This document shows, one piece after another, positions 34,765-52,501 of a DNA stretch of 64,000 nt (positions are counted from its first letter, which is position 1; each line of letters opens with the position of its first letter). This stretch comes from Xanthomonas sp. NCPPB 1128 (lineage in GTDB: Bacteria; Pseudomonadota; Gammaproteobacteria; Xanthomonadales; Xanthomonadaceae). The position numbers were made by a program, and so were the translations under genes. Below the pieces are notes generated by a model. That model was not told the origin of the DNA. It saw only the letters and a list, made by a program, of their open reading frames with translations, and did not search any database. The stretch spans positions 1 to 64,000 of the forward strand of contig NZ_LFME01000005.1 in the NCBI RefSeq assembly GCF_001043115.1, in the 5' to 3' direction.

Positions 34765-34905
34765 GGTCCGCAATGGCTGCGGAGCATAGATGCGGCTCTG
34801 CATCCAGCGTCTACGCGACACGAGCCAAGGACGACCACTTGGCGATAGAGTACGGCGAGGCCGACACCCGCATCGGCCTGCCCCGTGTCGCAACCGGACC
34901 TCGCA

Positions 34906-35106
34906 ATGCGCGTAACCAGCACCGCCACCCCGACCGGAACCACCGCCGCCGAATGGCGCGCCATCGAACAGGCCGCCGTCCGCGAACTGCAACGCCGCAC
35001 CGAGGCGGCGCATACATCGGTGATCGCGCTGCTGCAGACGCATGCCGACGCGTTCAGCGCGAAACAGCGCGCCCAGATCCGGCGGCGGTTGGGGCAGGGC
35101 GGCTGA
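34906..35106 (+). CDS. Small hypothetical protein
   Basis: A 66-residue soluble, helical protein (MRVTSTATPTGTTAAEWRAI at the start, ending QIRRRLGQGG). No motif is recognised. Codon composition looks coding-like, but the ribosome site is weak (GGA 7 nt upstream). A GTG seven codons earlier is an alternative start. It may be a short genus-specific protein or a spurious frame. Confidence 0.45.
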   Translation: MRVTSTATPTGTTAAEWRAIEQAAVRELQRRTEAAHTSVIALLQTHADAFSAKQRAQIRRRLGQGG

Positions 35107-35332
35107 ACCCCAAGGCCGCCTGGCGTGGCAGTTCTGCCATGCCGGGCATGCAGCCCGTCGATCGATGAGGGGCGCTTCCAGGGAAGCGCGATCGACCGGC
35201 GGTGCACGCCCGGCTGCCAGTGCCGAGGCGAAAGCCGCAGACGATCTACGGCAGCCATCCGCGTGTCAGGCGTCCGGCCCCGTCCATCGCTGATTGCCAC
35301 ACAACCTCGGCTATCATCGCCCCGACGCTGAG

Positions 35333-36676
35333 ATGAGTACGGATATGGAAGTGCGACTCACGCGCGAGCAGGTCCTCGCGCTTGCGCCCGATGCGGCATC
35401 GGCCAAGGCGGCCGCGGGCCTGGCCACGGACGGGAAATGGGGCTTGCTCGGCGCCGACGCCGAGGTGCTGTGGGGAGAATGCCAGGGCAGCGGCGCCAAG
35501 CCCTACCAGACCCAGGTGGACCTGGCCGCGCTGGTGAGCCGTTGTTCGTGCCCGAGCCGCAAGTTCCCGTGCAAGCATGGCCTGGCGATGCTGTTGCTGT
35601 ATGCCGCCGGCAATCCGCGCTGCGTGCCGGGCGCCCGCCCGGCCTGGGTCGACGAATGGATGCAGGGGCGCCGCGAGCGCGCGGCGCGCAAGGAGGAGAG
35701 TGCCGCCAGCACGCCGCCGCCCGATCCGCAGGTCCAGGCCGCGGCGGCGGCCAAGCGCGAACAGGCGCGTTGGACGCGCATGCATGCCGGCGCGGCCGAA
35801 CTGCAACGCTGGATCGCCGACCAGTTCCGCCAGGGCCTGGCCAACCTGGGCGCTGAATTCGCCCAGGACGCGCGGCGCATGATGGCGCGCATGGTGGATG
35901 CGCAGGCCCCGGGCCTGGCCGCACAGCTGGAGCGCGCCGTGGGCGAGGGTGGGCGCGATCTCGCGCAGCTCGCCGACCTCGGCGAACGCCTCGGACTGCT
36001 GCAACTGCTGGCCCAGGCGGTACCGCGCGCCGGCGGCTTCAATCGCGCTCGCCAGGCGGATCTGCGCGCCGCGCTGGGCTGGCCGCTGGAGCGCGACACG
36101 GTGCTGCGCGAGGGCGAGGCCGTGCACGATCGCTGGCACGTCCAGGGCCAGCACCTGATCGAGCAGCCGGGCAATCTGCTGGAGCGCCGGGTGTGGCTGC
36201 AGGGCCTGGACAGCGGCCGCTTCGCGCTACTGCTGGACTACAGCCACGGCGGCCGCGGCTGGGAGCAGTACTGGCGCAACGGAGACGTGCATGTCGGCCG
36301 CCTGCATTTCCATCCGGGCACGGTGCCGCTGCGCGCCGTGGCTGGCGAGCTCGGTGCCGGCGCGCAGGCCGTCGCCGCGCCGCCACGCACCGACACCCTC
36401 GACGCCGCCGCCTGCGCGCATGCGCTCAATCCTTGGTTGCCGCAGGTGTCCATGCGCTTGCGGGACGTGCACATCGCGCACGATGGCCGCAGTGCCTGGG
36501 CGCAGCACGCCGAAGGCGGCCTGCCCTTGCAGGTATCCGCGTTGCAGGGCTGGGCGCTGCTCGCGTTCGCGGGTGGCCACCCGGTGTGTCTGATGGGCGA
36601 GTGGGATGGCCATACGTTGTTGCCGCTCAGCGCCTGGAACGGGCAAGGCGAGTGTTGGGAAAGGAGTGCGGCATGA
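35333..36676 (+). CDS. SWIM zinc-finger family protein (module gene 1)
   Basis: A 447-residue protein whose N-terminal part carries a complete SWIM zinc motif, CxCx6CxH: C71, C73, C80 and H82 in RCSCPSRKFPCKHGL. SWIM domains bind nucleic acid or protein. A charged Ala/Arg-rich linker (about residues 105-150) and a C-terminal region without recognisable enzyme motifs follow. It is the first gene of a five-gene unit (SWIM, DUF5691-like, MoxR ATPase, DUF5682-like, VWA) and overlaps the next gene by 4 nt. The start could also be the ATG four codons later. Confidence 0.82.
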   Translation: MSTDMEVRLTREQVLALAPDAASAKAAAGLATDGKWGLLGADAEVLWGECQGSGAKPYQTQVDLAALVSRCSCPSRKFPCKHGLAMLLLYAAGNPRCVPGARPAWVDEWMQGRRERAARKEESAASTPPPDPQVQAAAAAKREQARWTRMHAGAAELQRWIADQFRQGLANLGAEFAQDARRMMARMVDAQAPGLAAQLERAVGEGGRDLAQLADLGERLGLLQLLAQAVPRAGGFNRARQADLRAALGWPLERDTVLREGEAVHDRWHVQGQHLIEQPGNLLERRVWLQGLDSGRFALLLDYSHGGRGWEQYWRNGDVHVGRLHFHPGTVPLRAVAGELGAGAQAVAAPPRTDTLDAAACAHALNPWLPQVSMRLRDVHIAHDGRSAWAQHAEGGLPLQVSALQGWALLAFAGGHPVCLMGEWDGHTLLPLSAWNGQGECWERSAA

Positions 36677-38199
36677 ACGAGGCCTGGTTGAAGCCGGCCC
36701 TGCTCGGCATCGATCGCCCGCAACGGATCCCGGTCGACGGCGCGCTCGGCGAGGTGCTTGCCGCCATCGCCATGCAGGAGGATGCCGCACTGGGCTACAG
36801 CCTGCAGGTAGGCGCGTTGGCAGCGTGCAGGCGTGCCGCGCTGCGTCTTGGCGCAGCACTGCCGTCGCCGCCGCCTGTGTCGCCCGACCCGCAGGTGCTG
36901 CCCGCCGATCACCCTTGGTTGCCGTTGTTGCAAGCGCTGTTCGCCGGGCAGCAGCCGCCCGCATGGCTGAAGCGTCTCCGCCAGGAAGCCTGCCTGCAGT
37001 TGGCAACCCGCGGCCAGAATCTGCCTGTCGCGGTACTGCCACAGGCATTGGATGCAGGCGCACGCCTGGCTGCGCTGCGCAGCGCCTTGCGCGCGGTGCT
37101 GGGCGCACGCGGGCACTGGCTGGCGGCACGCAACGCGGAGTGGGCCTATGCCGCCGATGCGGTAGAGGCGGCGCATACACCTGCAGACCTGGAGCGGATG
37201 TGGAGCGACGGCGCGTTCGATACACGGCTGCTCGCCCTGCGTCAGTTGCGCGCGCAGGACGCCGCGGGCGCACGCGTGCGCGTGGAAGCCGCGCTCAAGG
37301 AGCTGTCCGCGCGCGAACGCGCCGCCTGCATCGAGGCCTTGCAGGCGCACCTGAGCGAGGCCGACGCGCCCTTGTTGCAGCAGCTATTGAAGGATCGCAG
37401 CCGCGAGGTACGGTTGCTGGTCGGGCCGATGCTGGCTCGGCTGTCGAGCACCGCGCATGCGCAGTACCTGCAAACGCAGATGCTCGGAGTGCTGCGGCAA
37501 CAGCGCACCGGCTTGCTGCGCCGGGTGACCTGGACCCTGGATGCGCCTTCCGCCATCGACGCCGGTTGGAACGACACCGCCATCGATGCCAAGCGTCCCG
37601 ACCATGATGCCCTCGGCGAACGCGCCTGGTGGCTCTACCAACTGGCGCGGCAACTGCCGCTTGCCTGGTGGAGCAACACCCTGGAGAAGAACCCGGAAGT
37701 GCTGCTGGCCTGGGTCCGCAGTACGGAGTGGTACGACGCCTTGCTGCGCGCCTGGCTGGAACGCGTGGACGCCAGTGAACCTGCCTGGGTGGAAGCCTTG
37801 ATCGGCGTAGAGCAGCGGCTGCTGGCCCTGGGCGAGTTGCTGGCCCTGCTGCCGCCAGCGCAACGCGAACGGCACTGGCCGGCCAGCGCCGCAGACCTGC
37901 AGCAACAGCGCCTGCTCGGCGATGTGCTGGCCAGCACCGCACTCGGCGAGACGCTGAGCGCGGCGTACTCGCAGCGATTGGCCGCAGGTCTTGGCGCGCT
38001 GTTCGAGGCGGAAACGCTGCGCCACGACTACATCCTGCGCGACGCGCTGCTGGAACTGCTTGCCATCCTGCATCCCGCCGCACTGCCGCAGGTGCAGGTG
38101 GCCGATCCGCCGGCAGACGCCACCGCCGCCATGCTCGATTGCGTGCAGCAGGCACGCCAGCTCCTTGCCCTGCGCCAGACCCTGCACGCCGCATCCTGA
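36673..38199 (+). CDS. DUF5691-like helical protein (module gene 2)
   Basis: A 508-residue, Ala/Leu-rich protein with no catalytic motif that I can see. Repeated helical pairs (for example PLLQQLLKDRSREVRLLVGP MLARL near residues 236-258) look like HEAT-type repeats, which would make it a scaffold. The family name is inferred from its neighbours: DUF5691 proteins occur with SWIM, MoxR, DUF5682 and VWA genes in other bacteria. It starts by an ATGA overlap with the SWIM gene and is followed within 30 nt by the ATPase gene. Confidence 0.65.
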   Translation: MNEAWLKPALLGIDRPQRIPVDGALGEVLAAIAMQEDAALGYSLQVGALAACRRAALRLGAALPSPPPVSPDPQVLPADHPWLPLLQALFAGQQPPAWLKRLRQEACLQLATRGQNLPVAVLPQALDAGARLAALRSALRAVLGARGHWLAARNAEWAYAADAVEAAHTPADLERMWSDGAFDTRLLALRQLRAQDAAGARVRVEAALKELSARERAACIEALQAHLSEADAPLLQQLLKDRSREVRLLVGPMLARLSSTAHAQYLQTQMLGVLRQQRTGLLRRVTWTLDAPSAIDAGWNDTAIDAKRPDHDALGERAWWLYQLARQLPLAWWSNTLEKNPEVLLAWVRSTEWYDALLRAWLERVDASEPAWVEALIGVEQRLLALGELLALLPPAQRERHWPASAADLQQQRLLGDVLASTALGETLSAAYSQRLAAGLGALFEAETLRHDYILRDALLELLAILHPAALPQVQVADPPADATAAMLDCVQQARQLLALRQTLHAAS

Positions 38200-38225
38200 T
38201 CCTTACGCCTTTCATTGGAGACCTC

Positions 38226-39308
38226 ATGAGCACTGCCGTCCTGCGCCAGCATGCCGAACACCAATACGCCGAGGAACTGGAGGAACTGCGCCGCCAGGAC
38301 AACCGCCAGCGGCCTGCCAACTGGCTGCTGTCGCCCTGGGCGGTGGTGACCTACCTGCTCGGCGGCACGCTGGAGAACGGCTTCGTTGTCAGCCCCAAGT
38401 ACATCGGCGACCGCCGCCTGATGGAAGTGGCCGTGGCCACCATCGCCACCGATCGCGCCCTGCTGCTGTTCGGCGTGCCGGGCACCGCCAAGTCGTGGGT
38501 GTCCGAGCACATGACCGCTGCGATCAGCGGCGATTCCACGCTGCTGGTGCAGGGCACCGCCGGCACCAGCGAAGAGCAGATCCGCTATGGCTGGAACTAC
38601 GCACAGCTGCTGGCCAACGGACCCAGCGAGAAGGCGCTGGTGCCGAGTCCGCTGATGCAGGCCATGCGCCTGGGCAAGATCGCCCGCATCGAGGAACTCA
38701 CCCGCATTCCGGCCGACGTGCAGGACGCGCTGATCACCGTCCTGTCGGAAAAGACCTTGCCGATTCCGGAACTGGGCAGCGAAGTGCAGGCGGTGCGCGG
38801 CTTCAGCGTGATCGCTACCGCCAACAATCGCGACAAGGGCGTCAACGAACTCTCCAGCGCACTGAAACGCCGCTTCAACACCGTGATCCTGCCGGTGCCG
38901 TCCAGCGAAGAGGACGAAGTGGCGATCGTGCGCAAGCGCGTGGCCGAGATGGGCGCGGCGCTGGACCTGCCGGCCGAACCGCCGGCGCTGCAGGAAGTGG
39001 CGCGCGTGGTGCGCATCTTCCGCGAACTGCGCAATGGCGTCACCGAGGACGGCAAGGCCAAGCTGAAGAGCCCGACCGCCACGCTGTCCACCGCCGAGGC
39101 CATTTCGGTGATCAACAACGGCATGGCCCTGGCCGGCCACTTCGGCGACGGCGTGTTGCGCCCGGGCGACATGGCCGCCGGCATGATCGGCGCCATCGTC
39201 AAGGATCCGGTGCAGGACGCGCTGGTGTGGAAGGAATACCTGGAAACCGTGGTGAAGGAGCGCGAGGACTGGAAAGACCTGTACCGCGCGTTCCGCGAAC
39301 AGGCCTGA
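38226..39308 (+). CDS. MoxR-type AAA+ ATPase (module gene 3)
   Basis: A 360-residue AAA+ protein. Walker A is G83-VPGTAK-S90. The Walker B position reads IARIEEL (E156-E157), with Glu where the family normally has Asp (IDE). The sensor-1 asparagine is in VIATANNRDKGV and arginine fingers in ALKRRFN. MoxR ATPases act as chaperones that remodel or activate partners, usually with a VWA protein, which is present two genes downstream. A GGAG lies 5 nt before the ATG. Confidence 0.88.
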   Translation: MSTAVLRQHAEHQYAEELEELRRQDNRQRPANWLLSPWAVVTYLLGGTLENGFVVSPKYIGDRRLMEVAVATIATDRALLLFGVPGTAKSWVSEHMTAAISGDSTLLVQGTAGTSEEQIRYGWNYAQLLANGPSEKALVPSPLMQAMRLGKIARIEELTRIPADVQDALITVLSEKTLPIPELGSEVQAVRGFSVIATANNRDKGVNELSSALKRRFNTVILPVPSSEEDEVAIVRKRVAEMGAALDLPAEPPALQEVARVVRIFRELRNGVTEDGKAKLKSPTATLSTAEAISVINNGMALAGHFGDGVLRPGDMAAGMIGAIVKDPVQDALVWKEYLETVVKEREDWKDLYRAFREQA

Positions 39309-39322
39309 GCGGGCCGGCGTCG

Positions 39323-41623
39323 ATGAGCGAAGCCATCTCCCTGTTCGGCATCCGCCACCACGGCCCCGGCTGTGCGCGCAGCCTGGTCGCCGCATTGACG
39401 GCGCTGCAGCCGGACTGCGTGCTGATCGAAGGACCGGCCGGGACCGAGGCGCTGCTGCCGCATGTGCTGGAGGAGGGCATGCAGCCGCCGGTGGCTTTGT
39501 TGTCCTACTGCGTCGACGACCCGCAACTGGCGGTGTTCCATCCATACGCGGCGTACTCACCCGAGTGGCAGGCCATGCACTGGGCGCTGCGCAACGGCGT
39601 GCCGGTGCGCTTCATGGATGTGCCGCCGGCCTTGACCCTGGAATGGCAGGCACAGGCGCGTGCGCCTGCAGACCAAACGCCGGAGCCGGCGGACACGCTG
39701 CCACCGGCGCAGGATGACGCCGACGCACCCGAGGACGAGCGCGCCGAGGTGCGCCCGTCCGACCCGCTGGACTGGCTGGCGCGCGCCGCCGGCCATGCCG
39801 ACGGCGAGGCCTGGTGGAACCACATGGTGGAAGAGCGCGGCGACGGACAGGGACTGTTCGACGCCATTGCCGAGGCCATGACCGCCGTGCGCGCGCACAC
39901 GCCGGACCATCCCGGCCTGCGTGGCGAACACGAGGCCGTGCGTGAGGCCCACATGCGCAGCGCGCTGCGCAGTGCCGGCAAGGCCTTCGCACGCGTCGCG
40001 GTGGTCTGTGGCGCCTGGCACGTACCGGCGCTGCAGCCGGACGCGTTGCGCGCCAACAGCGCCACCGCCGACAGCCGCCTGCTCAAGGCCATGCCCAAGC
40101 GCAAGACGCAGAGCACCTGGGTGCCGTGGACCTATCGCCACCTGAGCATGGACAGCGGCTACGGCGCCGGCGTGGAGGCACCGGGCTGGTACGACCACCT
40201 GTGGCGCAGCAGCGGCGTCCACGACCAGCGTGCCGTCGGTTGGTATGCGCGGGTGGGGCGGTTGCTGCGCGACCACGGACTCGACTGCTCGTCGGCGCAC
40301 CTGATCGAGGCCACACGCCTGGCGGACACGCTGGCTGCCTTGCGTGGACATCCGGTCCCCGGTCTCGACGACATCGCCGAGGCCAGCCGCGCGGTCATCT
40401 GCAATGGCGACGATGCGCCGATGCGGCTCATCCGCGAGCGCCTGATGATCGGCGATTCCCTGGGACAGGTGCCCGACAGCGTGCCGGCAGTGCCGCTGCA
40501 GCGCGACCTGGAAGCGCAGCAGAAGCGCCTGCGCCTGAAACCCGAAGCGCTGGAAAAAACCCTGGATCTGGACCTGCGCAAGGACACCGACCTGGCGCGT
40601 AGCCATCTGCTGCATCGGCTGCGCCTGATCGGCATCGAATGGGGCCGGCTGGCGCGCACGGGGCAGTCTGCACGCGGCACTTTCCACGAGATCTGGCAAC
40701 TGGCCTGGCAGCCGCACTTCCTGGTGGATCTGGTGCAGGCCAGCCGTCACGGGCAGACCCTGGCCGATGCCGCCACCGGCATGGCCATCGCGCAGGCGCG
40801 CAAGGCCGAGGCGCTGCCTGCGCTGTCCGCGCTGGTGGACCAGGTGCTGCTGGCCGACCTGCCGCAGGCGGTCAGCGCGATCGCTGCGGAACTGGAGGCG
40901 CGCGCCGCCACCGATGCCGACCCGCTGGCGCTGCTCGGCGCATTGCCGCCGCTGGCCAACGTATACCGCTACGGCAATGTCCGCCAGATCGAAGGCCACC
41001 CGGTCGCGCACCTGTTCGACAGCATGCTGGCGCGCGCGGTCGTCGGCCTGACCCTGGCGCTGTCCAGCCTCGACGAGGCGCGTGCCGAGCAGGCGCGCAG
41101 CATCGTCCTGGACGCCGATCGCGCCATCGGCCTGCGCGGGGATGCGGACGGCAGCGCCAACTGGCAGCAGGCATTGCGACGCGTGGCGCTGTCGCCGGCG
41201 TGCAGCGCGCTGCTGCGCGGCGTGGCGCTGCGGGTGCTGTTCGACACGCAGGCGGTGCAGGCCGACACCGTGCACCTGCAGCTTCAGCAGCAACTGTCGC
41301 CGGGTGCCGAACCGCTGCAGGCCGCGCAGTGGCTGGACGGCTTCCTCAACCGCAACGCCACCGTGCTGCTGCACGACGACGCCGTGTGGCAGATGATCGA
41401 CGCCTGGGTCGTGGCGCTGGACGAGGCACAACTGGTGCGCGTGCTGCCGTTGGTGCGGCGTACCTTCGCCGCCTTCCAGCCGGCCGACCGCCGCGACCTG
41501 GGGACGCGCGTGCGCCAGGCGCCGGTGGAGACCGCCGTGGCCTCCGTTGCCCCGGACTGGAACGTGGCCCGCGCCGAGCGCGCCGTGCCGACGCTGCGCG
41601 AACTGCTGGGATTGCCCGCATGA
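39323..41623 (+). CDS. DUF5682-like protein with TraB/TIKI-type motifs (module gene 4)
   Basis: A 766-residue protein. Its N-terminal third has LFGIRHHGPGCARSL (H12, H13), then CVLIEGPAG (E36), and VVCGAWHVPAL with H233. This spacing of histidine, glutamate and a Gly-x-x-His strand resembles the TraB/TIKI/ChaN/EreA superfamily of metal-dependent hydrolases; that assignment is inferred. An acidic linker (about residues 112-140) follows; the remaining ~400 residues look helical. It starts 14 nt after the ATPase gene and overlaps the VWA gene by 4 nt, so it is probably the client or effector of the MoxR/VWA pair. Confidence 0.72.
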   Translation: MSEAISLFGIRHHGPGCARSLVAALTALQPDCVLIEGPAGTEALLPHVLEEGMQPPVALLSYCVDDPQLAVFHPYAAYSPEWQAMHWALRNGVPVRFMDVPPALTLEWQAQARAPADQTPEPADTLPPAQDDADAPEDERAEVRPSDPLDWLARAAGHADGEAWWNHMVEERGDGQGLFDAIAEAMTAVRAHTPDHPGLRGEHEAVREAHMRSALRSAGKAFARVAVVCGAWHVPALQPDALRANSATADSRLLKAMPKRKTQSTWVPWTYRHLSMDSGYGAGVEAPGWYDHLWRSSGVHDQRAVGWYARVGRLLRDHGLDCSSAHLIEATRLADTLAALRGHPVPGLDDIAEASRAVICNGDDAPMRLIRERLMIGDSLGQVPDSVPAVPLQRDLEAQQKRLRLKPEALEKTLDLDLRKDTDLARSHLLHRLRLIGIEWGRLARTGQSARGTFHEIWQLAWQPHFLVDLVQASRHGQTLADAATGMAIAQARKAEALPALSALVDQVLLADLPQAVSAIAAELEARAATDADPLALLGALPPLANVYRYGNVRQIEGHPVAHLFDSMLARAVVGLTLALSSLDEARAEQARSIVLDADRAIGLRGDADGSANWQQALRRVALSPACSALLRGVALRVLFDTQAVQADTVHLQLQQQLSPGAEPLQAAQWLDGFLNRNATVLLHDDAVWQMIDAWVVALDEAQLVRVLPLVRRTFAAFQPADRRDLGTRVRQAPVETAVASVAPDWNVARAERAVPTLRELLGLPA

Positions 41624-42801
41624 CCGACACGACACCTACACCCGACACGCCCACCTCGCGCACGCAGCGCTGGCGCCTGATCCTGGGGCAGGAGGCCGAG
41701 TCCAGTTGCGGCGCCTTGCCCAAGCCGCTGCAGGGCATCGACCAGGCACTGGCCGCCCTGTACGAACCCGATGGCCCGGGCGGCCTGGGGCGCCGCGGCG
41801 GGCGAGGGGCCTCCTCGCCCAACGTGGCTCGCTGGCTGGGCGATATCCGCCGCTATTTCCCATCCTCGGTGGTGCAGGTGATGCAGCGCGACGCCCTTCA
41901 GCGCCTGGACCTCACCCAGATGCTGCTCGAAAAGGAAATGCTCGAGCAGGTGCAGCCCGACGTGCACCTGGTCGCCAACCTGATCGGCCTGAGCCGGGTG
42001 ATTCCGGCGCAGACCAAGGACACCGCGCGCATGGTGGTGCGCCAGGTGGTGGAGCGCCTGCTGCGCCAGCTCGAGGAACCGATGCGCTCGGCGGTGACCG
42101 GCGCCCTGGATCGCGCCCGCCGCAACCGCCGCCCGCGCCTGGCCGAGATCGACTGGCACCGCACCATCCGCAGCAACCTGCGGCACTGGCAGCCGGAGCT
42201 GCGCACCGTGGTGCCGCAGGACCTGGTCGGCTATGGCCGCAAGGCCAGGAAGCCGCAACGCGAAGTCCTGTTGTGCATCGACCAGAGCGGCTCCATGGCC
42301 GCCTCGGTGGTGTACTCCAGCATCTTCGGCGCGGTGATGGCCTCGCTGCCGGCGGTGTCCACGCGTCTGGTGGTGTTCGACACCGAAGTAGTCGACATGA
42401 GCGAGCAACTGGACGACCCGGTGGACCTGTTGTTCGGCGTGCAACTGGGCGGCGGCACCGACATCCACCGCGCGGTGAGCTACTGCCAGGGCATCATCCG
42501 CGAACCGCACAACGCTATCCTGGTGCTCATCTCGGATCTGTACGAAGGCGGCGTCGAAGAGCGGCTGCTGGCGCGCGCCCGCGAACTCATCGAATCCGGC
42601 GTGCAATTCATCGTGCTGCTGGCCCTCAGCGACGAAGGCACACCGTCCTACGACCGCGCCCTGGCGGCCAAGCTGGCGGCGCTGGGCGTGCCGTCGTTCG
42701 CCTGCACGCCGGATGCCTTCCCGGGCTTGATGGCCGCGGCGATCCGCCGGGACGACATCCAGCAGTGGGCGGGGGCGCAGGGGTTGGTGACGGTGCGGTG
42801 A
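41620..42801 (+). CDS. VWA domain (MIDAS) protein (module gene 5)
   Basis: A 393-residue protein with a C-terminal von Willebrand A domain. The MIDAS metal site is D221-Q-S223-G-S225 in LLCIDQSGSMAAS, with the conserved T in LGGGTDIHRAV and the Asp in VLISDLYEGG. The N-terminal 200 residues are helical and probably bind the AAA+ partner, as in CoxE/ViaA-like pairs. It closes the five-gene operon; after it the GC content drops. Confidence 0.85.
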   Translation: MTDTTPTPDTPTSRTQRWRLILGQEAESSCGALPKPLQGIDQALAALYEPDGPGGLGRRGGRGASSPNVARWLGDIRRYFPSSVVQVMQRDALQRLDLTQMLLEKEMLEQVQPDVHLVANLIGLSRVIPAQTKDTARMVVRQVVERLLRQLEEPMRSAVTGALDRARRNRRPRLAEIDWHRTIRSNLRHWQPELRTVVPQDLVGYGRKARKPQREVLLCIDQSGSMAASVVYSSIFGAVMASLPAVSTRLVVFDTEVVDMSEQLDDPVDLLFGVQLGGGTDIHRAVSYCQGIIREPHNAILVLISDLYEGGVEERLLARARELIESGVQFIVLLALSDEGTPSYDRALAAKLAALGVPSFACTPDAFPGLMAAAIRRDDIQQWAGAQGLVTVR

Positions 42802-43310
42802 GGTGAGATTGGTGGACTATTGATGTCTGGCACTACCGATTTTACATAAGATACATTATGCGAAATTTGCCGCATCCCCGGACGGGGGCGCGGCCGGCCA
42901 TCCCCGTTACAGATCCACCACAACTCTGAGCAGTTCCGCACCTGACTGCCGCGCAGGAAATGCCCCGTTCCCGCAGACATACACCCCATTTGCCGCGGAC
43001 ATACGCCGCACATTTCTCGGAGCCACGGACAAGTCGCCCCAGCCTTGATGGAACGATCACCGCCGCAGACATGCGTCATCTGCGCAAAGTCGGCATTGGC
43101 AGGACTGAAGGGGGATTTTGGAGCCCACAGCTTAAGGTCGGGGTTTGTGACAGAGGCCGGAAGCAAGGCATGCCGCTGCCCGCAGTGATGGCAATGACTG
43201 AGCACTGATCCGTGGCAAGCGTGATCGGGTATTTTCAAACTGTTACAGCAGTGGACAATTCCGCAGCATGGCTGCTCAAGTAAGGCAGTTGGCTACCCTG
43301 CGGCAGGTCT
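42802..43310. other. Gene-free gap with repeated CCGCAGACAT motifs
   Basis: About 500 nt of mixed composition. CCGCAGACAT occurs at 42971 and 43063, and a variant CCGCGGACAT at 42993. CAGTTCCGCA and CAATTCCGCA flank the region (about 42931 and 43255). No open frame is convincing. It may be the scar of a mobile element at the edge of the defence genes. Confidence 0.4.
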
Positions 43311-46300
43311 CTACGGGAGTAAGAATTCCTTTGCTGGCGACTTCTCCCCAAATAGCTTTTTCTTTCGTTCCGAGCGGACCCGCTGGTAGCGGTTCTTCAA
43401 CTGACTTTCGACACCAGGCCAGAACTGCCTATAGGGAGCGGAAGCAGCCCCGTCGTCCCGGCTAAAGACATCGAACCGTCCATCGACCACCTTGAGAAAT
43501 AGCACCGAGAAGCGCCAGAAGTCCTCAGGAGTCGCCGCTTTGAGCATTTTCCCGTGCCAGTGCATCGCCCATGCATGGCGGTGAAACGCGTACGCAGCCG
43601 CAGACTGGGCAGCTCCGATGAAGCCCGGCGTACCCTTGTACCGCGCCAAGACGGCCGAATTTGCGTACCTGTTACCAGATAGTCCCGCCACCATCAATGC
43701 TCGAGCTATTCTTGACGGCTCTCCGCTCTCCAGATTTTCCTCGATGTAACGCTCCAGCGCTGCCTCTTTGCTGCTCCAAAGCGCGGTCAGCACCTCCAGA
43801 GCGAGTTCGTCGTCGTTGATGGCGCTGTCCAAACGCCGGCTACGGATGGCTTCGAGCAGAGTGTGATCCTGAGCCGACCAAAGGGCCAGTCCAGCCAATG
43901 GCAGTCCAAAGCGACCAAAGCTGTTTCTGACATACGGCTCGCTTGCGTGCAGCGTTTCGAACAGCCGTGCTGCTAGATCGGGATTCCAACCAGCTATCGC
44001 ATGCGCCAGCAGCAACCCCAAGTTGTGGACGCCACCAAGACGAGCCTTCGGCAACCCCAAAAAAAGGTCCGCCCAGTCCTCCGCAAGCCCCCTATCTGCT
44101 TCAGCAACCTTCTTGAATTCGCTAAAGCGGAAACTGTCCAAGATGATCGCCGCGTCCGCAGCGGTCAGCTTCGCCCTAAAGACGTCGAAAGCTGCATGTG
44201 AAAGCCGTTGTTGCTCCTCGAATCTGTCGTTATCGTCCTTGTCATCGCGCATCAGCTCCGTCAGGTCCCTGCGCTCTTCCGGTTGCGCCGAGACGTGATA
44301 CCGCGCCAGCTCTAGCTTGTCTCCGCACAGCTGGTTTATCTCAATGACGGGCACGGCAACATCCAGCTCAAAGCCGGCCGCTTTCCTGATCGAGGCATCG
44401 ATACACCGCGCAACCGTGGCGCCCGCATCGCCGCCGAGCCTCTTCGCGGCTTGGCCATAGAGCTCGGGAGCTATGCGGTCAAGCGCATCGCTACTGGCCA
44501 GCACTCCAAGATTAGCCGCCTCTAGAATCACATGGGAGCCGTACCACGCTTCGTAACCGCCCTTGCACTCGAGGTTCTTGGCGGACCACCCGCTTTTCAC
44601 CACCGACTCGATTGTGCGTCGGTCGCCAGCCTTCAAGGCCATGTACAAGGTGAGCGCGCGAACCGTCTCTACTTCGCTCCTCACGAGCTCGGGAATGATT
44701 TCGAGAACGCGATCGGACAGGAGAGTATCGGAGTGAGCGCCGAACGCGAGGACGACGATCAATGCGCGCTTGTCCCCGCTAGGGATTGTATCCATCAGCA
44801 ACGTTTCATACGTTGACTGGTCAAGCGAGTTGGCGATGCTTAGAACAGAAATTAATGGGTTGCCTCCCGCATGCGGCGATAAAAGGGCTTTGACTTGCTC
44901 GTCGGCACTCAGCAGCGGAAACGCGGCCAGCAGTAAATACTGCGCTATCAAATGAGGCTCGTCTCCCTTGAGCGCGGCAGCCGCGCTGGCGATGATTCCC
45001 GTCTCCACACTAGACGCAACTTCCATAGCTTGTGCGGCGGTTAGAAGCGCATTGTGGTTGCTCATCTCAAAGGTTCCCTGGCGCAACGCCAGCCCTTTCC
45101 TGGAGATGACATGGCCGATGAACTCTCGGTGCTTTGCGATAGCCACCAATGGCTCGAATCGTACCAGCCCTGCCCTAGCTTCCGCGAAGTGCATATCTTC
45201 GCCGGACGGCCCCATGAACAGGCGAATCTTCGCGACATCGATGTCCGCGTAGCTCTTTGCCGTTTCCGTGATGTTGTCCGGCCTCTGGCTCTCCGGGTCG
45301 CAAGGATCGCTCGCACAGTACTTCTCGACGAGGCGCCACCCTTTTATTATTGGCCGATCGGCAGTAAGTTCCAGTAGCAGAGCGTGCTCCTGGGATGCCG
45401 CGGCAGGATCTCCCGTCGAACGCAGAAGATTTACGTACGCCCACTTTCCGGTTCGCGATACTCTGTCATCGGCGAACATACTGCCCGCCTCAACTATGGC
45501 ATCGCGCGCCTCCGTCCAGTCGACGCGATTGAACCGGGCAAGATGGATGAACTCGTCGTAGGGACAGTAGAATCCCATGTTCAGCGCACTGGCAAAGCTC
45601 CAGTGGAGCAGCGCCTTAGCGAACGGCGCAACCGGCTTTCCCGCGATCAGCACCAAGGCGAGTTGCGCGAGCGCATCGACATCGCCGTCGTTCCTTATGA
45701 GCTCATCCAGCAGCGTCCTTTCGGTCGGTGAAAGCGCAGCGATCTTAGCTTCGATCTCCACCTTCCGCTTGCGCCGTTCCTCCTCCACCTGGCCCGCATC
45801 GCCACCGGAGTCGATGGAATACATCCTTGCCTCTGGAGCCAGGGAATAGTGTCCCAACCATGACTGCAGGATCGGAATCATCGCCGTCCATGCAGTGTCG
45901 CAGAGTTTCGCGGCTTGCAGCGCAGCCCTCACCCAATCGAAGTTGGATGGATTGTCGCGGGCAAGACAAAGTAGGCGTGCCGCCTGCATGAAAACGTCCG
46001 GCCGGCCTTCGACTAGCAGGCAAAACGCCGGAAATTCGTCTCCATTGGGGTTCTGAAGTCCGGCGAAGGCGCACGTGACGGCCGCACCCACCTCAACCGG
46101 AACGTCAACGTCAAGGCAAGCAATGGTGAGTGCGGCTAGGACCGTGTCGAAGGTCCGATCGAGGGAGGCGATTGGTTCGATCATCGTCTCGATCGTGGCC
46201 GTCAAATCGCGTCCATTGCGCCTAGCCCTGCGCAGTTCATCGACAATCGCGAAGCCCAACGCGAGCGTAAGACCGCTTTCGTCCAGCCGGTATCGGGTCG

Positions 46301-47888
46301 GATCATCTTCGAGCTGTATGAAGAATCTTCCATCCGAAACCGCCTCAACACCTCCTTCGAAGACTTGAAGGTCGTCAATCTGTTGCCCATCGATCCTCTT
46401 CAGAATCTCATTTGCATGCTTCCTGAGGGCGAGAGCGAACTCGTGCGCCGGACGGGGAACCGGGCTATCCCGTTCCCCGTATATACGCATGTGCTCGAAC
46501 AGCAGCCTGCTGATGCTGAGTTGTTCGAGCTGCCTGATGTGCGATCCCTGCAGCAGTTCCAATGCGATCGCAAGTAGTCTGGGATTGCGCAGCGACGTGG
46601 CCACCGTCTCGGGCAGTTCATCTACGCGTATGCCGTGCCCCTCGAGGATCAAGTCGCGTTCGGTCTCTGTCCACTCCGGCACGGTAATCACTACGGTGGA
46701 TGCAATCAGGCGTCTCTTCACGTGCGCCGAGTAGTGCACGGTGCGCGTGGTGAGCACCAGCTGCCCGCCCATCCTGCCCAACTCGTGGCTCATGTCGTTG
46801 GCGATCCGCCCCCAGTCGAGCTGCGGTCGCTGGTTCATCCCGTCGATCACGACCACCAGACGCGGCGAGGCGGGCGTTTCTGCCTTGCGCCACCTGTTGA
46901 AGATCCGAAGCCACCGTGTTACAGCGGACTCCGATTTCCTGCCGCCAGTCTGCGCCACAAGCTTGTCGATCAGCGCGCCGATGATATCGCCGACCGCTGC
47001 AGCATCGCTGAACTCGTCAGCCGTGAACACCACCATCAACGGCCGGTCCGCTTGCGACAGCCAGCTTTGTGCGAACAACCACGACTTGCCGTTTCCTTCG
47101 TCTCCGACGATGACGGCAATTTTTCCGGCTGGCCGGGATGCAAGGAACGGATCCATTTCGGAGACCAGCGACTCCCTCGGCAACGGGTTGCCCAATACCG
47201 CGTCGCCGGGGGCCAAGGGTTGCCGGAGATGGCGCTTGGCGTGCTGCTGGCTGCCGAAAACGTCCTCAAGCCAGCGGCGATTGTTGCGCACTGCCAGCGA
47301 GGTGCCGATTGTCGGCTCCTGAAGCAACCCACGGATGCGCGCGGCATGTCTAGCAAACCGCTCGTCGTCCTCCACTGCCTTGAGTGATGCCAATGCGTTG
47401 GCACGTACTCCGCGCTCGTCTCCTGCCCCGCGGCCGATGAACTCCGCAGTTGCCTCTGCGGCCATCGCCAGGGCGACCGCGAGTGCCGGCAGATCCGCCC
47501 TGCTCCAGTCCAGCACAAGCGTGCTGATCCCGTTTCTTTCGCTGATTTCCAGAACGTTGTCCGCAAGTTGGGTACTGACGGACGTCGTCGCGCCAAGTAC
47601 CCATAGATCGACTCCGCTCCCACCGTCTATCGTCAACTCGGCAATCTTGGTAATGACTTCGTTTTTCGGGATCTTGCGATCGTAGCGTTTTGCCTCGAAG
47701 CAGATGGCGTCGTCTTCGTAGGACGACTTGCCATCCATGCCGAACTGCGATCCGCTGCTGGACAGGCGGATCGGCACTCCCGAAATTTCGGCCAGAACAA
47801 CGGCCAGCAGCCCTTCAAACCCGTCTTCCCCGGTGGCGGGCAGCTTGAGCAGCATGGCTCGCAGAGCCGCGATTGCCTTCTTGTCCAA
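43311..47888 (-). CDS. Avs-like STAND NTPase with N-terminal PD-(D/E)XK nuclease
   Basis: A 1525-residue protein. N-terminus: an Mrr-like restriction nuclease core, E25, D52 (FGMDG) and E65-A-K67 (ICFEAKRYD). Centre: Walker A G262-DEGNGK-S269 and Walker B LVVVIDGMNQ (D349), then a winged-helix-like part, typical of STAND/NACHT NTPases. The last ~900 residues are helical, as expected for a ligand-sensing repeat region. This architecture matches Avs anti-phage proteins, which recognise phage proteins and unleash a nuclease. The only possible start is TTG, preceded by AGGG at 7 nt; an in-frame TAG lies four codons upstream. GC is visibly lower than the flanks. It follows the Gabija-like pair on the same strand by about 190 nt. 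Confidence 0.83.
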   Translation of the reverse strand: MDKKAIAALRAMLLKLPATGEDGFEGLLAVVLAEISGVPIRLSSSGSQFGMDGKSSYEDDAICFEAKRYDRKIPKNEVITKIAELTIDGGSGVDLWVLGATTSVSTQLADNVLEISERNGISTLVLDWSRADLPALAVALAMAAEATAEFIGRGAGDERGVRANALASLKAVEDDERFARHAARIRGLLQEPTIGTSLAVRNNRRWLEDVFGSQQHAKRHLRQPLAPGDAVLGNPLPRESLVSEMDPFLASRPAGKIAVIVGDEGNGKSWLFAQSWLSQADRPLMVVFTADEFSDAAAVGDIIGALIDKLVAQTGGRKSESAVTRWLRIFNRWRKAETPASPRLVVVIDGMNQRPQLDWGRIANDMSHELGRMGGQLVLTTRTVHYSAHVKRRLIASTVVITVPEWTETERDLILEGHGIRVDELPETVATSLRNPRLLAIALELLQGSHIRQLEQLSISRLLFEHMRIYGERDSPVPRPAHEFALALRKHANEILKRIDGQQIDDLQVFEGGVEAVSDGRFFIQLEDDPTRYRLDESGLTLALGFAIVDELRRARRNGRDLTATIETMIEPIASLDRTFDTVLAALTIACLDVDVPVEVGAAVTCAFAGLQNPNGDEFPAFCLLVEGRPDVFMQAARLLCLARDNPSNFDWVRAALQAAKLCDTAWTAMIPILQSWLGHYSLAPEARMYSIDSGGDAGQVEEERRKRKVEIEAKIAALSPTERTLLDELIRNDGDVDALAQLALVLIAGKPVAPFAKALLHWSFASALNMGFYCPYDEFIHLARFNRVDWTEARDAIVEAGSMFADDRVSRTGKWAYVNLLRSTGDPAAASQEHALLLELTADRPIIKGWRLVEKYCASDPCDPESQRPDNITETAKSYADIDVAKIRLFMGPSGEDMHFAEARAGLVRFEPLVAIAKHREFIGHVISRKGLALRQGTFEMSNHNALLTAAQAMEVASSVETGIIASAAAALKGDEPHLIAQYLLLAAFPLLSADEQVKALLSPHAGGNPLISVLSIANSLDQSTYETLLMDTIPSGDKRALIVVLAFGAHSDTLLSDRVLEIIPELVRSEVETVRALTLYMALKAGDRRTIESVVKSGWSAKNLECKGGYEAWYGSHVILEAANLGVLASSDALDRIAPELYGQAAKRLGGDAGATVARCIDASIRKAAGFELDVAVPVIEINQLCGDKLELARYHVSAQPEERRDLTELMRDDKDDNDRFEEQQRLSHAAFDVFRAKLTAADAAIILDSFRFSEFKKVAEADRGLAEDWADLFLGLPKARLGGVHNLGLLLAHAIAGWNPDLAARLFETLHASEPYVRNSFGRFGLPLAGLALWSAQDHTLLEAIRSRRLDSAINDDELALEVLTALWSSKEAALERYIEENLESGEPSRIARALMVAGLSGNRYANSAVLARYKGTPGFIGAAQSAAAYAFHRHAWAMHWHGKMLKAATPEDFWRFSVLFLKVVDGRFDVFSRDDGAASAPYRQFWPGVESQLKNRYQRVRSERKKKLFGEKSPAKEFLLP

Positions 47889-48078
47889 TGGAAAGCCCTA
47901 AACTGCGTGGTGTTATCAGCTTGCCCTATTGACTCCCGGTGTTAACGGCAAGCCCGGTTTCCGCCAGCGCCGGCACCGGTGCGCCGCCCTGCGGGCGTCG
48001 CCGCACAATGGGTGTGCAACTCTTCTGCTTCGATTTCTTCCGTTTATTCTACAGCTGATCTCCTAGTAGGAGCCATGA

Positions 48079-49833
48079 TCAGTCCTCCTGTGGTGCGGGA
48101 GCTGGCTCGATTGCCCCGTCGAACCAGTTGTCGAGTCTTGCCAATGAGACGTTGGAAAGCTCTTGGGTGAAGAGAAGCGCTAAGCGCGTTGTCGGGCGGG
48201 AACAGCACACATAGAACAGATTGCGGTTCCTCTCGTACGCATCCTGCTTTCCGGCCGGGACTCCTTCGGCCGACCATTGCAGGAACTGGTCGAAGTTGTA
48301 CTTATTCCAGCCGCGCCCGAGAACGACCAGAACGTTCTCGAACTCGTCACCCTTCACGCTGTGCTTTGTAGCGAACGGGGTGTGACCGTCGATGAACCTG
48401 TCCAGGGCGATGACTTCCTTGTAGGGAACATCCCGCAACTGCCGGATCTGCTGGACCCGGCGCGGTGGCTCCTCCCCTTCCTCGCCATGCCATTCCGCGG
48501 CCTCGCTAACCGCGCCGAGCACAGCGTCCGGCGGTCGCGGATGCGCATGCTCGAACATGTAGTCCAGCACTTGGCCTATAGTTCCGTCGAGCCTAATCTT
48601 AGTGAGGCCCTCCATCGAGGATGACCATGCGACCTTGTCCGCATGCGAAGAGACGGCAGGCGTCAAGCCGCCTAGCAACGAGAACATCTCCCCGAACCGC
48701 TTGTGATGGAAAGCCGTGCATGCGGGCTCAAGCGCGTCGCAAAAGAACGCCATGAGCGGATCTTCCTTCTTGATGAACTGGTCCGTATAGGAAAAGATCT
48801 TGGTGATCGAATCGTAGCCCTGCTCCGAAGCGAGAACATTGTGGGTGAGCATGAGAACCTTGGTTCGCTGGGGAGCCACGTCCCAGCCGTCCGATTCCAG
48901 CTTCTTGATGAGCGTCGTCAAATAGGCATGGGCGGCCTCGGCGGGGAGATCGCCTTTCCAGTGTCCGCCTCCCGCGCCGGATCGGCGTTCGCCTTGCCAG
49001 GCATTGGTGTGGAACGCGATCGCCGAGCCAACGAAACTCTCGTCCTTCACCGCTTGTGGCAGCTCTGGCCTCATCCTGTTTAGGACATCGACTATCTTTG
49101 TCGCTGAGCGGAAGTTCGCCTTCTTGCCGATTTCCGTCAGTGCTTCATTGGTGACGTGGCCGCACGTCTTGTCGTAGATGCGTTGCCAGTGGTCGCCGAA
49201 CAAGCCGATCATCGGGCCGGTCGCGCGTCCGAGCAGGTGCCCGCTCATGCTGGTCATCACCGCAACGTCCGTATCCTGGTACTCGTCTATCAGTACGAAC
49301 GGGTACTGCTGCGCAAGAAGCGCCTGAAACTTCACGTTCGGGAGCAGCGAAACCATTAGCCCCAGGACGTCGTCATGGTGCAGGGTGACGGTGTCGGTGG
49401 TGGCGCGGCGGTGGCCGAGTTCGTATTCGACGATCCGGCTGCCGATTCCGTTTGCCTCGGCCAGCTTCTCGTCCCATTCCGACATTGCCGAGACCAGTGA
49501 CCTCAGCGCTGGCTGGAATTTCCTGATCAGCGACCAGCAGAACGCATGGATGGTGTCGACGAAGACCAGCGGATTGCTGTCGATACGGCTGTTGATGACG
49601 GCCGTGGCCGCATTGGTGTAGGTGATGCAGGCGATGCGTTGGTGGTTCCTGCGCAGCTTGAGGCCCTCGTGTTCGATGAGGTGCTTGAGCGCTTCCACCA
49701 ACGAATAGGTCTTGCCGGCGCCGGCGCCGGCTTCGAGCAGGAAGTTGCGATGGTCCCGCAAGCACTGTACGACAAGTGCTTCCGCTTCTCGCGCGGCGAT
49801 CAGCGCGGGGCTCGCTTCGGGTACGGCATTCAT
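48079..49833 (-). CDS. gajB: UvrD-like helicase, GajB-like
   Basis: A 584-residue superfamily 1 helicase. Walker A is AGAGAGKT (residues 35-42), Walker B FVLIDEYQDT near residue 183, motif V-like HSVKGDEFENVLVV near 494 and motif VI-like FYVCCSRPTTRLAL. Its start overlaps the upstream OLD-type nuclease gene by 4 nt, the pairing that defines Gabija. Bacillus GajB is about 90 residues shorter. Likely role: senses DNA ends or nucleotide state and activates the nuclease during phage infection. Confidence 0.8.
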   Translation of the reverse strand: MNAVPEASPALIAAREAEALVVQCLRDHRNFLLEAGAGAGKTYSLVEALKHLIEHEGLKLRRNHQRIACITYTNAATAVINSRIDSNPLVFVDTIHAFCWSLIRKFQPALRSLVSAMSEWDEKLAEANGIGSRIVEYELGHRRATTDTVTLHHDDVLGLMVSLLPNVKFQALLAQQYPFVLIDEYQDTDVAVMTSMSGHLLGRATGPMIGLFGDHWQRIYDKTCGHVTNEALTEIGKKANFRSATKIVDVLNRMRPELPQAVKDESFVGSAIAFHTNAWQGERRSGAGGGHWKGDLPAEAAHAYLTTLIKKLESDGWDVAPQRTKVLMLTHNVLASEQGYDSITKIFSYTDQFIKKEDPLMAFFCDALEPACTAFHHKRFGEMFSLLGGLTPAVSSHADKVAWSSSMEGLTKIRLDGTIGQVLDYMFEHAHPRPPDAVLGAVSEAAEWHGEEGEEPPRRVQQIRQLRDVPYKEVIALDRFIDGHTPFATKHSVKGDEFENVLVVLGRGWNKYNFDQFLQWSAEGVPAGKQDAYERNRNLFYVCCSRPTTRLALLFTQELSNVSLARLDNWFDGAIEPAPAPQED

Positions 49834-51848
49834 GCGACTGCTCCGGCATCGCCCGGTGGCGCGGGCGTAGGCGGCAGGTCGCCTTCAGCGAGCCATGCCA
49901 ACCCGCTCCGGATGTAGTGCGGGATGTTCCATTCGCCTTTGGACAGGGCATGCTCCAATGCGAATGCGGATTTCTTCAACTCCTTCGCTTCTTCCCAGGC
50001 TTGGGCTTCTTTCTCCTGCTCGCTAGGTCCCGGCAACGGGAAGAGCTCAGGGTTTGCCAGCATGAACGCGTCTTCGAAGCTGCGGCCGCAAGGTCCTGCC
50101 TCGGTCTCGGGACACTGGTGCGCGAGCCGCATCCGGCCTTTGGTCCTGGCCGCATCATCGACAGCCAGCAGTTCTGCCGGGGTGATGCCGTTGTTATCGT
50201 ACCAGGACTTCAGGCAGGCATTGCTGGTCTTCTGCCCCTGCGACACCTGGCAGGCGACGAGCTTGCCGGCGCCGTTGGCCTTCACGCTGTCGATGTCGGT
50301 AATGACCAAGGTCCGGAGCTCAAGGAAATTGACGAGATCGAAGAAGATATGCGCGTAGGCGCCGCCGACCTCGACGACGGCGAGATACTGGCTGCCAAGC
50401 TTCTTTCCCTCTGCGAAATCCTTGTCAAGTATCCGGATGATCTTTGGGAGCAACAGTCTTTCGGTTGTGCCCTCGATCAGGATCGCTTTGTCTGCGAAGA
50501 ACAGGTCGCACCGGGTGAGGGTCATGTATTGATGCAGGAATGTGCGGTCTGGCTCAGGCTTTCCGGCAAGTCCCTTCCTGAGATCCTTGACCTTGGTGCT
50601 GATGATGCCGTTCTTGTCCGCGGAAGCGAGGAAGTACCGGATCGTCTCGAAGTGAGCTTCATTGGCGACATGGGACGAGTGCGTCGAAACGACGAACTGT
50701 ACGGGCCACGATTCTCCGGTTTCCTTGTTGAACGCCAATGCGATGTCCGCGATCTTCCGGATGAAGACTTCCTGCATCTGCGGATGCAGGTGGACCTCGG
50801 GCTCCTCGATGAAAACGAGGTGCACCGAGGGCCTGGGCTCCATCGCAAGATAGAGCTTGAAGAACTCCCTGAGCTGCAAAAGGATCAGGATGATATTGCG
50901 CGTTCCCAAGCCGTTGTAGGCCTCGGGAAGATGGATGCCATTGGATCCGGTATACCTGACTTTCGTGTGGTTGGTCAGGAGCTTGGCAACGTCGAGAGTC
51001 GTTTCGGTCAGAAGCTTGGGGTCGTTGAGGCCCGGATAGCCAAATAGCGACAATGCGGGAAGCAATTGGTCGAGCTTCTCGTTGAAGTCGTCACCAATCT
51101 TGTCTTGGATCGCCTTGACCGCAACCTCGAGTTCCTGGGCGATGGCGTGGCTGTCCGTGTCATCGGTGTTGCTCTTGGCCGTCGAAAAAAGGTTCTCCAG
51201 CACCTTGCCGATGACCACGCGCTCTTTCTGGCTCGCGTCATCCAGCCCGCGCTGTGCGCTGATGAAGCCGCCAATGCACAGTTTCTTCAGTGTCGACCTT
51301 TCGATGACCTTTTCGTTTGTTTCATCGTTCGGGTCGATGGCGACAAAGGTCGTTTCGTACAGCGACGGAACTCGGTCGCGGAGGAGGCGGAAAAAGCCCG
51401 GTCTCGCGTTCTCGTCCGTCTCCGTAAAGTCACCTAACAGTTCGGGCAGCTTCCCGTCCTTGAGCGCGTACCGGACGACGCCTAAGGCTTCCGTGCATTC
51501 GGGATCAAGGTCGACGACCAACTCGCTGAGCAAGCCGAGGTGCTCGCCATTTTTATACGAAAAACGAAGCCTGACTTCTATCGAAGGCAAGATCTTCCTT
51601 ATCTCTATCTCGTCCTCGCCCTTGGCTCTTCGGAGATGAGAATCCCAGAACTGGTCGTAGCAACAGAACGAGAAGTCCTCCAGGGAAAAAGAGGGAGAAG
51701 CATCGGACAGAAGGCGCTTCATCACTTCAGTCAAGGATGTCTTGCCGCTGTTATTGCGTCCGACTATGACGGTAGTTCGGTGCTCCAAAAGCAATCTGAC
51801 GTCGTGCAGCAGTCTGAAGTTCTTGGCTTCGATTTGCTTGAGGTACAT
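49830..51848 (-). CDS. gajA: OLD-family ATPase/TOPRIM nuclease, GajA-like
   Basis: A 672-residue protein with an ABC/SMC-like ATPase (Walker A G30-RNNSGK-T37; Walker B LVFIEEPEVHLHPQM near 345) split by a helical insert, then a TOPRIM nuclease domain: catalytic E in AILIEGTTERLLLP near 456 and the DxD of ITDIDSVK near 517. This is the layout of OLD nucleases and of Gabija GajA, which nicks DNA when NTPs are depleted. It is about 95 residues longer than Bacillus GajA, mostly at the C-terminus. An AGGGGGAAGCAGGA stretch precedes the ATG. Confidence 0.82.
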   Translation of the reverse strand: MYLKQIEAKNFRLLHDVRLLLEHRTTVIVGRNNSGKTSLTEVMKRLLSDASPSFSLEDFSFCCYDQFWDSHLRRAKGEDEIEIRKILPSIEVRLRFSYKNGEHLGLLSELVVDLDPECTEALGVVRYALKDGKLPELLGDFTETDENARPGFFRLLRDRVPSLYETTFVAIDPNDETNEKVIERSTLKKLCIGGFISAQRGLDDASQKERVVIGKVLENLFSTAKSNTDDTDSHAIAQELEVAVKAIQDKIGDDFNEKLDQLLPALSLFGYPGLNDPKLLTETTLDVAKLLTNHTKVRYTGSNGIHLPEAYNGLGTRNIILILLQLREFFKLYLAMEPRPSVHLVFIEEPEVHLHPQMQEVFIRKIADIALAFNKETGESWPVQFVVSTHSSHVANEAHFETIRYFLASADKNGIISTKVKDLRKGLAGKPEPDRTFLHQYMTLTRCDLFFADKAILIEGTTERLLLPKIIRILDKDFAEGKKLGSQYLAVVEVGGAYAHIFFDLVNFLELRTLVITDIDSVKANGAGKLVACQVSQGQKTSNACLKSWYDNNGITPAELLAVDDAARTKGRMRLAHQCPETEAGPCGRSFEDAFMLANPELFPLPGPSEQEKEAQAWEEAKELKKSAFALEHALSKGEWNIPHYIRSGLAWLAEGDLPPTPAPPGDAGAVA

Positions 51849-52165
51849 GTCCTGCTTCCCCCTGAACCTTGCAATGAGACACGGGATACACCAAGCACCT
51901 TGACAGGTCGCGAATCGCTAGTCTTCACACAATAAATGTCCGCTATAGGTCGACAGCTGGCAAGCCCTAACTCCGATAAAATCTCTCTAATTAGCTTATC
52001 GAACCATAGACCGGTCCTCGCTGGATGCTCCAGGTAGAGAGCCGCCATGTCCCCGATAAAAGTCCCCTAATCGCTTCCCGGCTACGCTTGCTCTCGAACA
52101 AAAAGAGGATATTTCACGATGTCGGCATAAGCCGAGCCTAGAAGCCAGGTCGTCTAGCTCCCACT
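51849..52165. other. AT-richer gap upstream of the gajA-like gene
   Basis: About 315 nt with no convincing gene. It must hold the promoter of the leftward defence genes. An imperfect inverted repeat, GATAA...TTATC, lies near 51975-52000. I cannot assign a firm -35/-10 pair. Confidence 0.4.
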
Positions 52166-52501
52166 TTACGCCTCTTCCGCTGAGGGCGGGCGAACATACG
52201 GGATGTCCTGCCTGCGGGACGCGCCAAATTGCTGATAGTTGGCTCGGGCTTGTGTGAGGCTGAGGTTGCCATCGCGGCCGCCTAGTACGTCATCAGCATC
52301 ATCATCTTGACCATCATCCTCCCAAAAGCAAACGGCGCAAATCTTAAATTCCCCTCGCTCGGAAAGCGTCTTGTAGCTACAGAAGGGGCCTGCGGAGTGG
52401 AAGGTCTTTGAGCAGCATGACGTAGCAACCCAATAAAATGGATCCCCGGATCCGGTGGAGATGCATCCTGCAGCGTAGATGCCACTCGACGCTTGGGGCA
52501 A
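52166..52501 (-). pseudogene. CPCC-type cysteine-rich protein, probably degraded at its N-terminus
   Basis: The C-terminal part KTLSERGEFKICAVCFWEDD, then GQ...LSLTQARANYQQFGAS, matches small CPCC-family proteins. The first zinc knuckle, normally PCPCCGY, reads AGPFCSY and so lacks two cysteines. The only start is a TTG 36 codons upstream, in sequence unlike the family, 10 nt from the end of the monooxygenase gene. Most likely a decayed or 5'-truncated gene; a diverged functional protein is possible. CPCC genes are common beside defence and mobile loci. Confidence 0.5.

Follow-up and report, generated by a model that had tools for sequence, protein, structure and literature searches.

This report concerns a compact group of five genes in Xanthomonas sp. 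NCPPB 1128 (RefSeq assembly GCF_001043115.1, contig NZ_LFME01000005.1), found in a stretch of 64,000 nucleotides (nt) at positions 1 to 64,000 of the contig, which we call the window. The genes occupy positions 35333-42801 of the plus strand and encode, in this order, a SWIM protein, a DUF5691 protein, a MoxR AAA+ ATPase, a DUF5682 protein and a CoxE-type VWA protein. They and their main motifs are as follows (aa, amino acids; all on the plus strand; Pfam E-values in brackets).

35333..36676, plus: SWIM zinc-finger protein, 447 aa (SWIM, 4.3e-6)
35543-35578, plus: SWIM motif CSCPSRKFPCKH, within the SWIM gene
36673..38199, plus: DUF5691 protein, 508 aa (DUF5691, 3.5e-80)
38226..39308, plus: MoxR AAA+ ATPase of the YehL type, 360 aa (AAA_5, 1.6e-37)
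38472-38495, plus: Walker A of the MoxR protein
38691-38696, plus: Walker B acidic pair of the MoxR protein
39323..41623, plus: DUF5682 protein, 766 aa, the proposed client or effector (DUF5682, 4e-248)
39329..40057, plus: alpha/beta domain predicted at the N-terminus of DUF5682 (about aa 3-245), with profile similarity to Tiki/TraB/ChaN
39347-39361, plus: GIRHH motif of DUF5682
39428-39430, plus: E36 of DUF5682
39617-39619, plus: D99 of DUF5682
39941-39946, plus: R207-E208 of DUF5682
40019-40021, plus: H233 of DUF5682
41620..42801, plus: VWA (CoxE-type) protein, YehP-like, 393 aa (VWA_CoxE, 5.5e-51)

A first-pass annotation, made from the letters alone, had described a same-strand set of five genes joined by ATGA overlaps or by gaps of less than 30 nt, and the coordinates bear this out: the overlaps join SWIM to DUF5691 and DUF5682 to VWA, DUF5691 and MoxR are 26 nt apart, and MoxR and DUF5682 14 nt. 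Its five domain assignments likewise agree with Pfam matches obtained for all five proteins. The ATPase is of the YehL type (as judged from its AAA_5 domain, its Walker residues and its identity to YehL; we take "YehL subfamily" to be the name of this type), and the VWA protein is of the CoxE/YehP type by its VWA_CoxE domain and the residues of its metal-ion-dependent adhesion site (MIDAS). The residues that define these families are very well kept among homologues: K89, E156 and E157 of MoxR in 75/75, D221, S223, S225 and D306 of the MIDAS in 73/73 (T280 in 71/73) and, among 69 SWIM homologues, C71 and C73 in 67/67, C80 in 67/68 and H82 in 68/68.

The five genes form an old unit, a compact module conserved across very different bacteria. 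A scan of GTDB with a DUF5682 alignment matched at least 592 stretches, at least 586 of which encode a relative, and we surveyed the best 80 of these relatives, a sample biased to the window's branch, scoring the families at each locus with profiles built in this analysis. All five genes are present in 64 of the 68 loci with long flanks (at least 4.6 kilobases (kb) upstream and 1.3 kb downstream of DUF5682), and order and strand are kept in 62 of the 68, or in 66 when all 80 are counted (adjacent matches to the same family, that is split frames, L034, L041 and L058, were scored as one gene). Linkage at this level is not due to chance, and the neighbourhood survey that the first-pass annotation had proposed speaks for a conserved association and not for homologues that occur mostly unlinked. 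DUF5682, which it had put forward as the partner of the MoxR-VWA pair, is indeed constant beside a pair that carries conserved Walker and MIDAS residues. As the survey covers the nearest relatives, these figures apply to the window's branch. Some of the five members are absent from L048, L050, L063 and L064, and in two Streptomycetaceae loci (L088 and L090) SWIM and DUF5691 lie on the opposite strand. Conserved order is not always tight adjacency, as a few loci (e.g. L021, L052 and L087) contain insertions of 3-4 kb; in L021 (Variovorax, 5685-10139) an Hsp90/HATPase-like open reading frame (ORF) and an ORF of 847 aa that matched no Pfam family stand between MoxR and DUF5682. Plasmid records from Deinococcus and Rhizobium have the five genes annotated in the same order; in one of the two, a small additional gene separates MoxR from DUF5682. 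Clustering of neighbouring ORFs across the 80 loci gave no further family recurring in more than 10 of them. The DUF5682 tree (78 rows, 13 NCBI phylum-level groups) has a topology that largely follows the phyla, with 16 phylum changes where the minimum possible is 12 and the mean of shuffled trees 42.3; the window's protein clusters there with 16 Pseudomonadota rows, the named families being Comamonadaceae and Sphaerotilaceae, with a support of 100 in the Shimodaira-Hasegawa-like approximate likelihood ratio test (SH-aLRT).

While the first-pass annotation was right about the linkage and the MoxR-VWA pair, it overlooked that the operon has a homologue in Escherichia coli. The gene order in strain K-12 is yehI (DUF4132), yehK, yehL, yehM, yehP and yehQ, of which yehL-yehM-yehP-yehQ are b2119-b2122. 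The window's MoxR is 42% identical to YehL (over 350 columns), its DUF5682 27% identical to YehM across the length and its VWA 35% identical to YehP; yehLMPQ is found at a coverage of at least 80% in 5162 of 5426 E. coli genomes. The homologues of MoxR, DUF5682 and VWA stand in the same order in both, with a SWIM protein adjoining, but the SWIM gene is last in E. coli and first in the window, and E. coli has DUF4132 (yehI) where the window has DUF5691. The two SWIM proteins can be aligned at the SWIM motif only (hhalign probability 8.5%), and DUF5691 and DUF4132 reach a probability of 27%.

The same division appears in a set of 299 Pseudomonadota genomes, of which 12 contain DUF5682, with 13 full-length copies in all (one fragment below the cut-off, in G246, was left out). 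Six of the 13 copies are of the window's type, each with DUF5691 at 1.2-1.7 kb, and these six account for every DUF5691 match above the cut-off (two below it, in G209 and G009, were left out). The best BLAST matches of the other seven mark them as E. coli YehM-like, and the tree places them in a group of their own. DUF5691 is present at none of these seven loci; DUF4132 lies 1.5-3.1 kb away at six, the seventh being at a contig end. An ORF with a SWIM-type motif is close to the VWA gene at six of the seven, the remaining one ending before that position, and in three of the six this ORF also matches YehQ. From this comparison of two branches we conclude that MoxR-DUF5682-VWA is constant, with SWIM nearby and either DUF5691 or DUF4132 as a further partner. 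The window's genome has DUF5691 and no DUF4132. The two partners occur together in 5 of the 80 loci, all Chitinophagaceae by title, and DUF4132 is also found without DUF5682 (G007 and G200). Two E. coli-like loci carry tandem DUF4132 genes, three in L113 (9398-18550) and two in L116 (8174-15984), those of L116 being placed between DUF5682 and VWA.

Nine residues of DUF5682 (R11, H12, H13, E36, E81, D99, R207, E208 and H233) are invariant in two alignments, one of 14 rows spanning both branches and one of 63 rows from the window's branch. A rougher 80-row alignment shows H12 and H13 in 79 rows. We compared a profile of aa 1-330 (by hhalign) with profiles of TraB/PrgY/GumN (26 sequences, after 4 of 30 places had been dropped, three below the cut-off and one a fragment) and of ChaN (20 sequences). 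The score against TraB was 33.0 and that against ChaN 34.6, and none of 300 column shuffles scored as high in either case (best 26.6 and 24.6; reversed profiles 21.9 and 21.6). For reference, TraB against ChaN scores 38.6, and four unrelated profiles compared with DUF5682 gave P-values of 0.18-0.38. In the alignment, LFGIRHHGPG...DCVLIEGP of DUF5682 corresponds to LFGTIHVLKP...DQVVLEL, and VVCGAWH to the late GxGH; that is, an early GxxH, a Glu in the next strand and a late GxxH follow each other in the order seen in Tiki, TraB and ChaN proteins, from which DUF5682 differs by its long C-terminal helical array. Passages of PMC6254334 describe Tiki proteins as having a parallel beta-sheet core with common His and Glu residues. 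An AlphaFold2 model of DUF5682 (mean predicted local distance difference test, pLDDT, 90.2; predicted template modelling score, pTM, 0.86) has an alpha/beta N-terminal domain followed by a mostly helical array, in which E36 and D99 belong to strands of the former and H12/H13 and H233 come immediately after its strands. Profiles and motifs together support, but do not prove, an N-terminal domain of the Tiki type, which we consider fairly probable.

All five genes are maintained by purifying selection. The ratio of nonsynonymous to synonymous substitution rates (dN/dS), computed with five of the seven relatives fetched from the genus, is 0.008-0.060 for MoxR, 0.057-0.112 for VWA, 0.097-0.181 for DUF5682, 0.158-0.238 for SWIM and 0.200-0.253 for DUF5691, the fastest-evolving of the five. 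The faster change of SWIM and DUF5691 would suit a function in recognition or sensing.

We think that there is an even chance that the operon encodes a MoxR-VWA machine of the YehL/YehP type that remodels or gates DUF5682 as its client or effector. MoxR would form the ATP-driven ring, and VWA, which has a metal-binding MIDAS, would act as an adaptor, guiding this ring to the client; DUF5682 would contribute a hydrolase-like domain of the Tiki/TraB/ChaN type followed by the helical array. Remodelling may either mature DUF5682 (for example by metal loading) or free it from an inactive state, and SWIM, together with DUF5691 (or, at the E. coli-like loci, DUF4132), may recruit the substrate or sense a signal. 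This proposal draws support from the E. coli-like branch, where MoxR, DUF5682 and VWA are again linked, with a different large helical-type partner. A broader version is more tentative, and we would rather bet against it than for it: that this is a class of machine present in about a dozen phyla and, in variant form, in almost every E. coli, in which a MoxR-VWA pair would switch on a dedicated Tiki-type hydrolase; the large partner (DUF5691 or DUF4132) would be exchangeable, and a SWIM finger would select the target. The conserved MoxR-DUF5682-VWA unit and the predicted active site of DUF5682 make DUF5682, DUF5691, DUF4132 and the YehL-type MoxR a single question, and one that can be addressed in a laboratory strain, given a relative of the module in almost every E. 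coli genome.

Several results count against this proposal and should be acknowledged. The hhalign probabilities of DUF5682 against TraB and ChaN are just 24-49%, and a relation to erythromycin esterase had to be rejected, as the score of 21.2 was exceeded by the highest among 100 shuffles (25.8); in the same comparison TraB likewise fails (20.6) and ChaN passes (53.5). A Foldseek search of the PDB with the full-length model returned no match at E <= 0.001, so the Tiki fold is unconfirmed, and the 50 rows listed of 471, none of which is of the Tiki type by title, are mostly helical-repeat or helical proteins. Finally, the tentative roles of SWIM and DUF5691 derive from evolutionary rate and motif.

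The module has a G+C content of about 70%, and the island that follows it (about 42.8-54 kb) one of 56-62%. As the first-pass annotation had noticed, phage-defence genes are nearby: the island contains a Gabija pair (48079-51848, minus strand) with strong PADLOC matches. It also contains an ORF of 1525 aa with a TTG start (43311-47888, minus strand), possibly a gene of the island, which had no Pfam, PADLOC or NCBIfam match.

48079-49833, minus: GajB (PADLOC)
49830-51848, minus: GajA (PADLOC)

The module is present in 8 of 20 genomes of the genus. Of the seven relatives fetched, five have a similar block that starts at 35302-35306 and ends at 42801-42805, with different immediate neighbours; G310 and G308 have the upstream flank in common with the window, and G304, G305 and G307 keep both flanks of the window's site without the module (the region of G309 was fetched and left out of the gene-family scans). 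The site (34765-52510), which follows a histidine-kinase gene, is variable in the genus and often occupied by defence-type genes, found there in four of the five genomes examined, the window's with its Gabija pair among them. G310 has an AbiL-like pair beside the module, G305 has HEPN and GajA-like genes, and G304 has a weak GapS1-like match (63.5 bits against a cut-off of 320); in G307 the site holds an epoxide hydrolase and a TetR regulator, and no defence gene was found there. Two genes further downstream in G308, scanned with Pfam, are not defence genes either. The regions of relatives that belong to this observation are:

L109, 5914-9476
L108, 6835-8403
L103, 12193-14197

These observations bear on the conflict-related role that the first-pass annotation had suggested, in which SWIM and DUF5691 would be the sensors and, on an infection signal, the MoxR-VWA pair would set DUF5682 free as a harmful hydrolase. 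The patchy distribution in the genus, the sharp edges of the module with changing neighbours, the defence genes at its site and the rarity of DUF5682 among Pseudomonadota all fit such a system, and MoxR-vWA conflict systems do exist (PMC7159879, in passages). The wider evidence does not go the same way. PADLOC gave no match for four of the module proteins and just weak IetA matches for MoxR (E 0.0062 and 0.0068), none of them convincing; the relative in E. coli is close to universal; and the DUF5682 tree largely follows the phyla. The 124 neighbour genes of 31 of the 80 loci gave scattered PADLOC and Pfam matches of mixed kinds, counted without a control set (at E <= 1e-15, 33 PADLOC families were matched; of the 25 listed, 24 were hit by a single gene and the other by two genes). 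A match was found in just 1 of 50,697 phage records, and in 31 of 72,556 plasmid records. The suggestion is favoured by the hotspot in the genus and not by the picture elsewhere, and we consider a conflict system unlikely.

Slightly less likely still, in our opinion, is a damage- or stress-response machine that protects or repairs after DNA or RNA damage, with DUF5682 acting on a damaged protein or nucleoprotein. According to passages of PMC8533742, depletion of DdrO in Deinococcus strongly raises the drA0166 operon (drA0166 being a DUF4132 gene) as well as dr2173, and MolR is reported as LexA-regulated; in passages of PMC4245954, delta-molR1 is synthetically sick with delta-lepA. These hints concern DUF4132 or molR and not the window's operon, whose genome is without DUF4132; furthermore, no box of the LexA, SOS or radiation/desiccation response (RDR) type was found upstream of this operon, and in 65 upstream regions such boxes are not above chance. 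RtcB-type RNA ligase genes lie near the module in both branches, at two of the 80 loci surveyed and at one of the seven of the E. coli-like type:

L028, 17440-18750
L065, 3979-5403
L114, 15850-17001

A linkage to RNA repair was considered and rejected, RtcB being too rare. The module might finally mature a metalloenzyme encoded elsewhere, as CoxD-CoxE and NorQ-NorD, both metalloenzyme maturation systems, would do, and DUF5682 would then be a helper and not the client. The window's VWA does belong to the CoxE family, and molR owes its name to molybdate use, as cited in passages of PMC8533742 and PMC4245954, but none of the neighbouring families, which recur too rarely, resembles a shared enzyme client, and we regard this explanation as improbable. 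The remodelling or gating of DUF5682 is the most likely reading.

RavA-ViaA resembles the window's operon in combining a MoxR protein with a VWA protein; the difference is that the window shows a weak ViaA match (15.8 bits against a cut-off of 500), and to our knowledge RavA-ViaA has no DUF5682, SWIM or DUF5691 partner. The open-licence literature, among the matches listed, assigns no role to the module, in agreement with the first-pass annotation, which knew of none. We found there no mention of DUF5682 and nothing on yehL, MoxR and YehP together or on MoxR, SWIM domain and VWA together; among the matches listed, no title announces a functional study for the yeh gene names, and DUF5691 does not occur in those for DUF4132/MolR/WGR/DUF5691. 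The nearest described relatives are in Kaur et al. (2020, PMC7159879), passages of which present MoxR-vWA pairs as chaperone-cochaperone couples derived from CoxD-CoxE (a derivation that would also suit the maturation of a metalloenzyme); the searched portion of its text contains none of the terms SWIM, YehL, YehP, MolR and WGR. The ternary conflict systems of that paper are like the window's operon in that a MoxR-VWA pair has a third component in its neighbourhood. In the passages concerned this component is VMAP, iSTAND, FtsH or a beta-propeller, none of which was matched in the five module proteins at a Pfam E <= 1, the sole match being to the bpMoxR model, below its cut-off (18.4 bits against 27). 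In the window the third component is DUF5682, and what appears to be new here, as far as can be judged from sequence, is a variant of the MoxR-VWA theme with DUF5682 as its candidate client domain.

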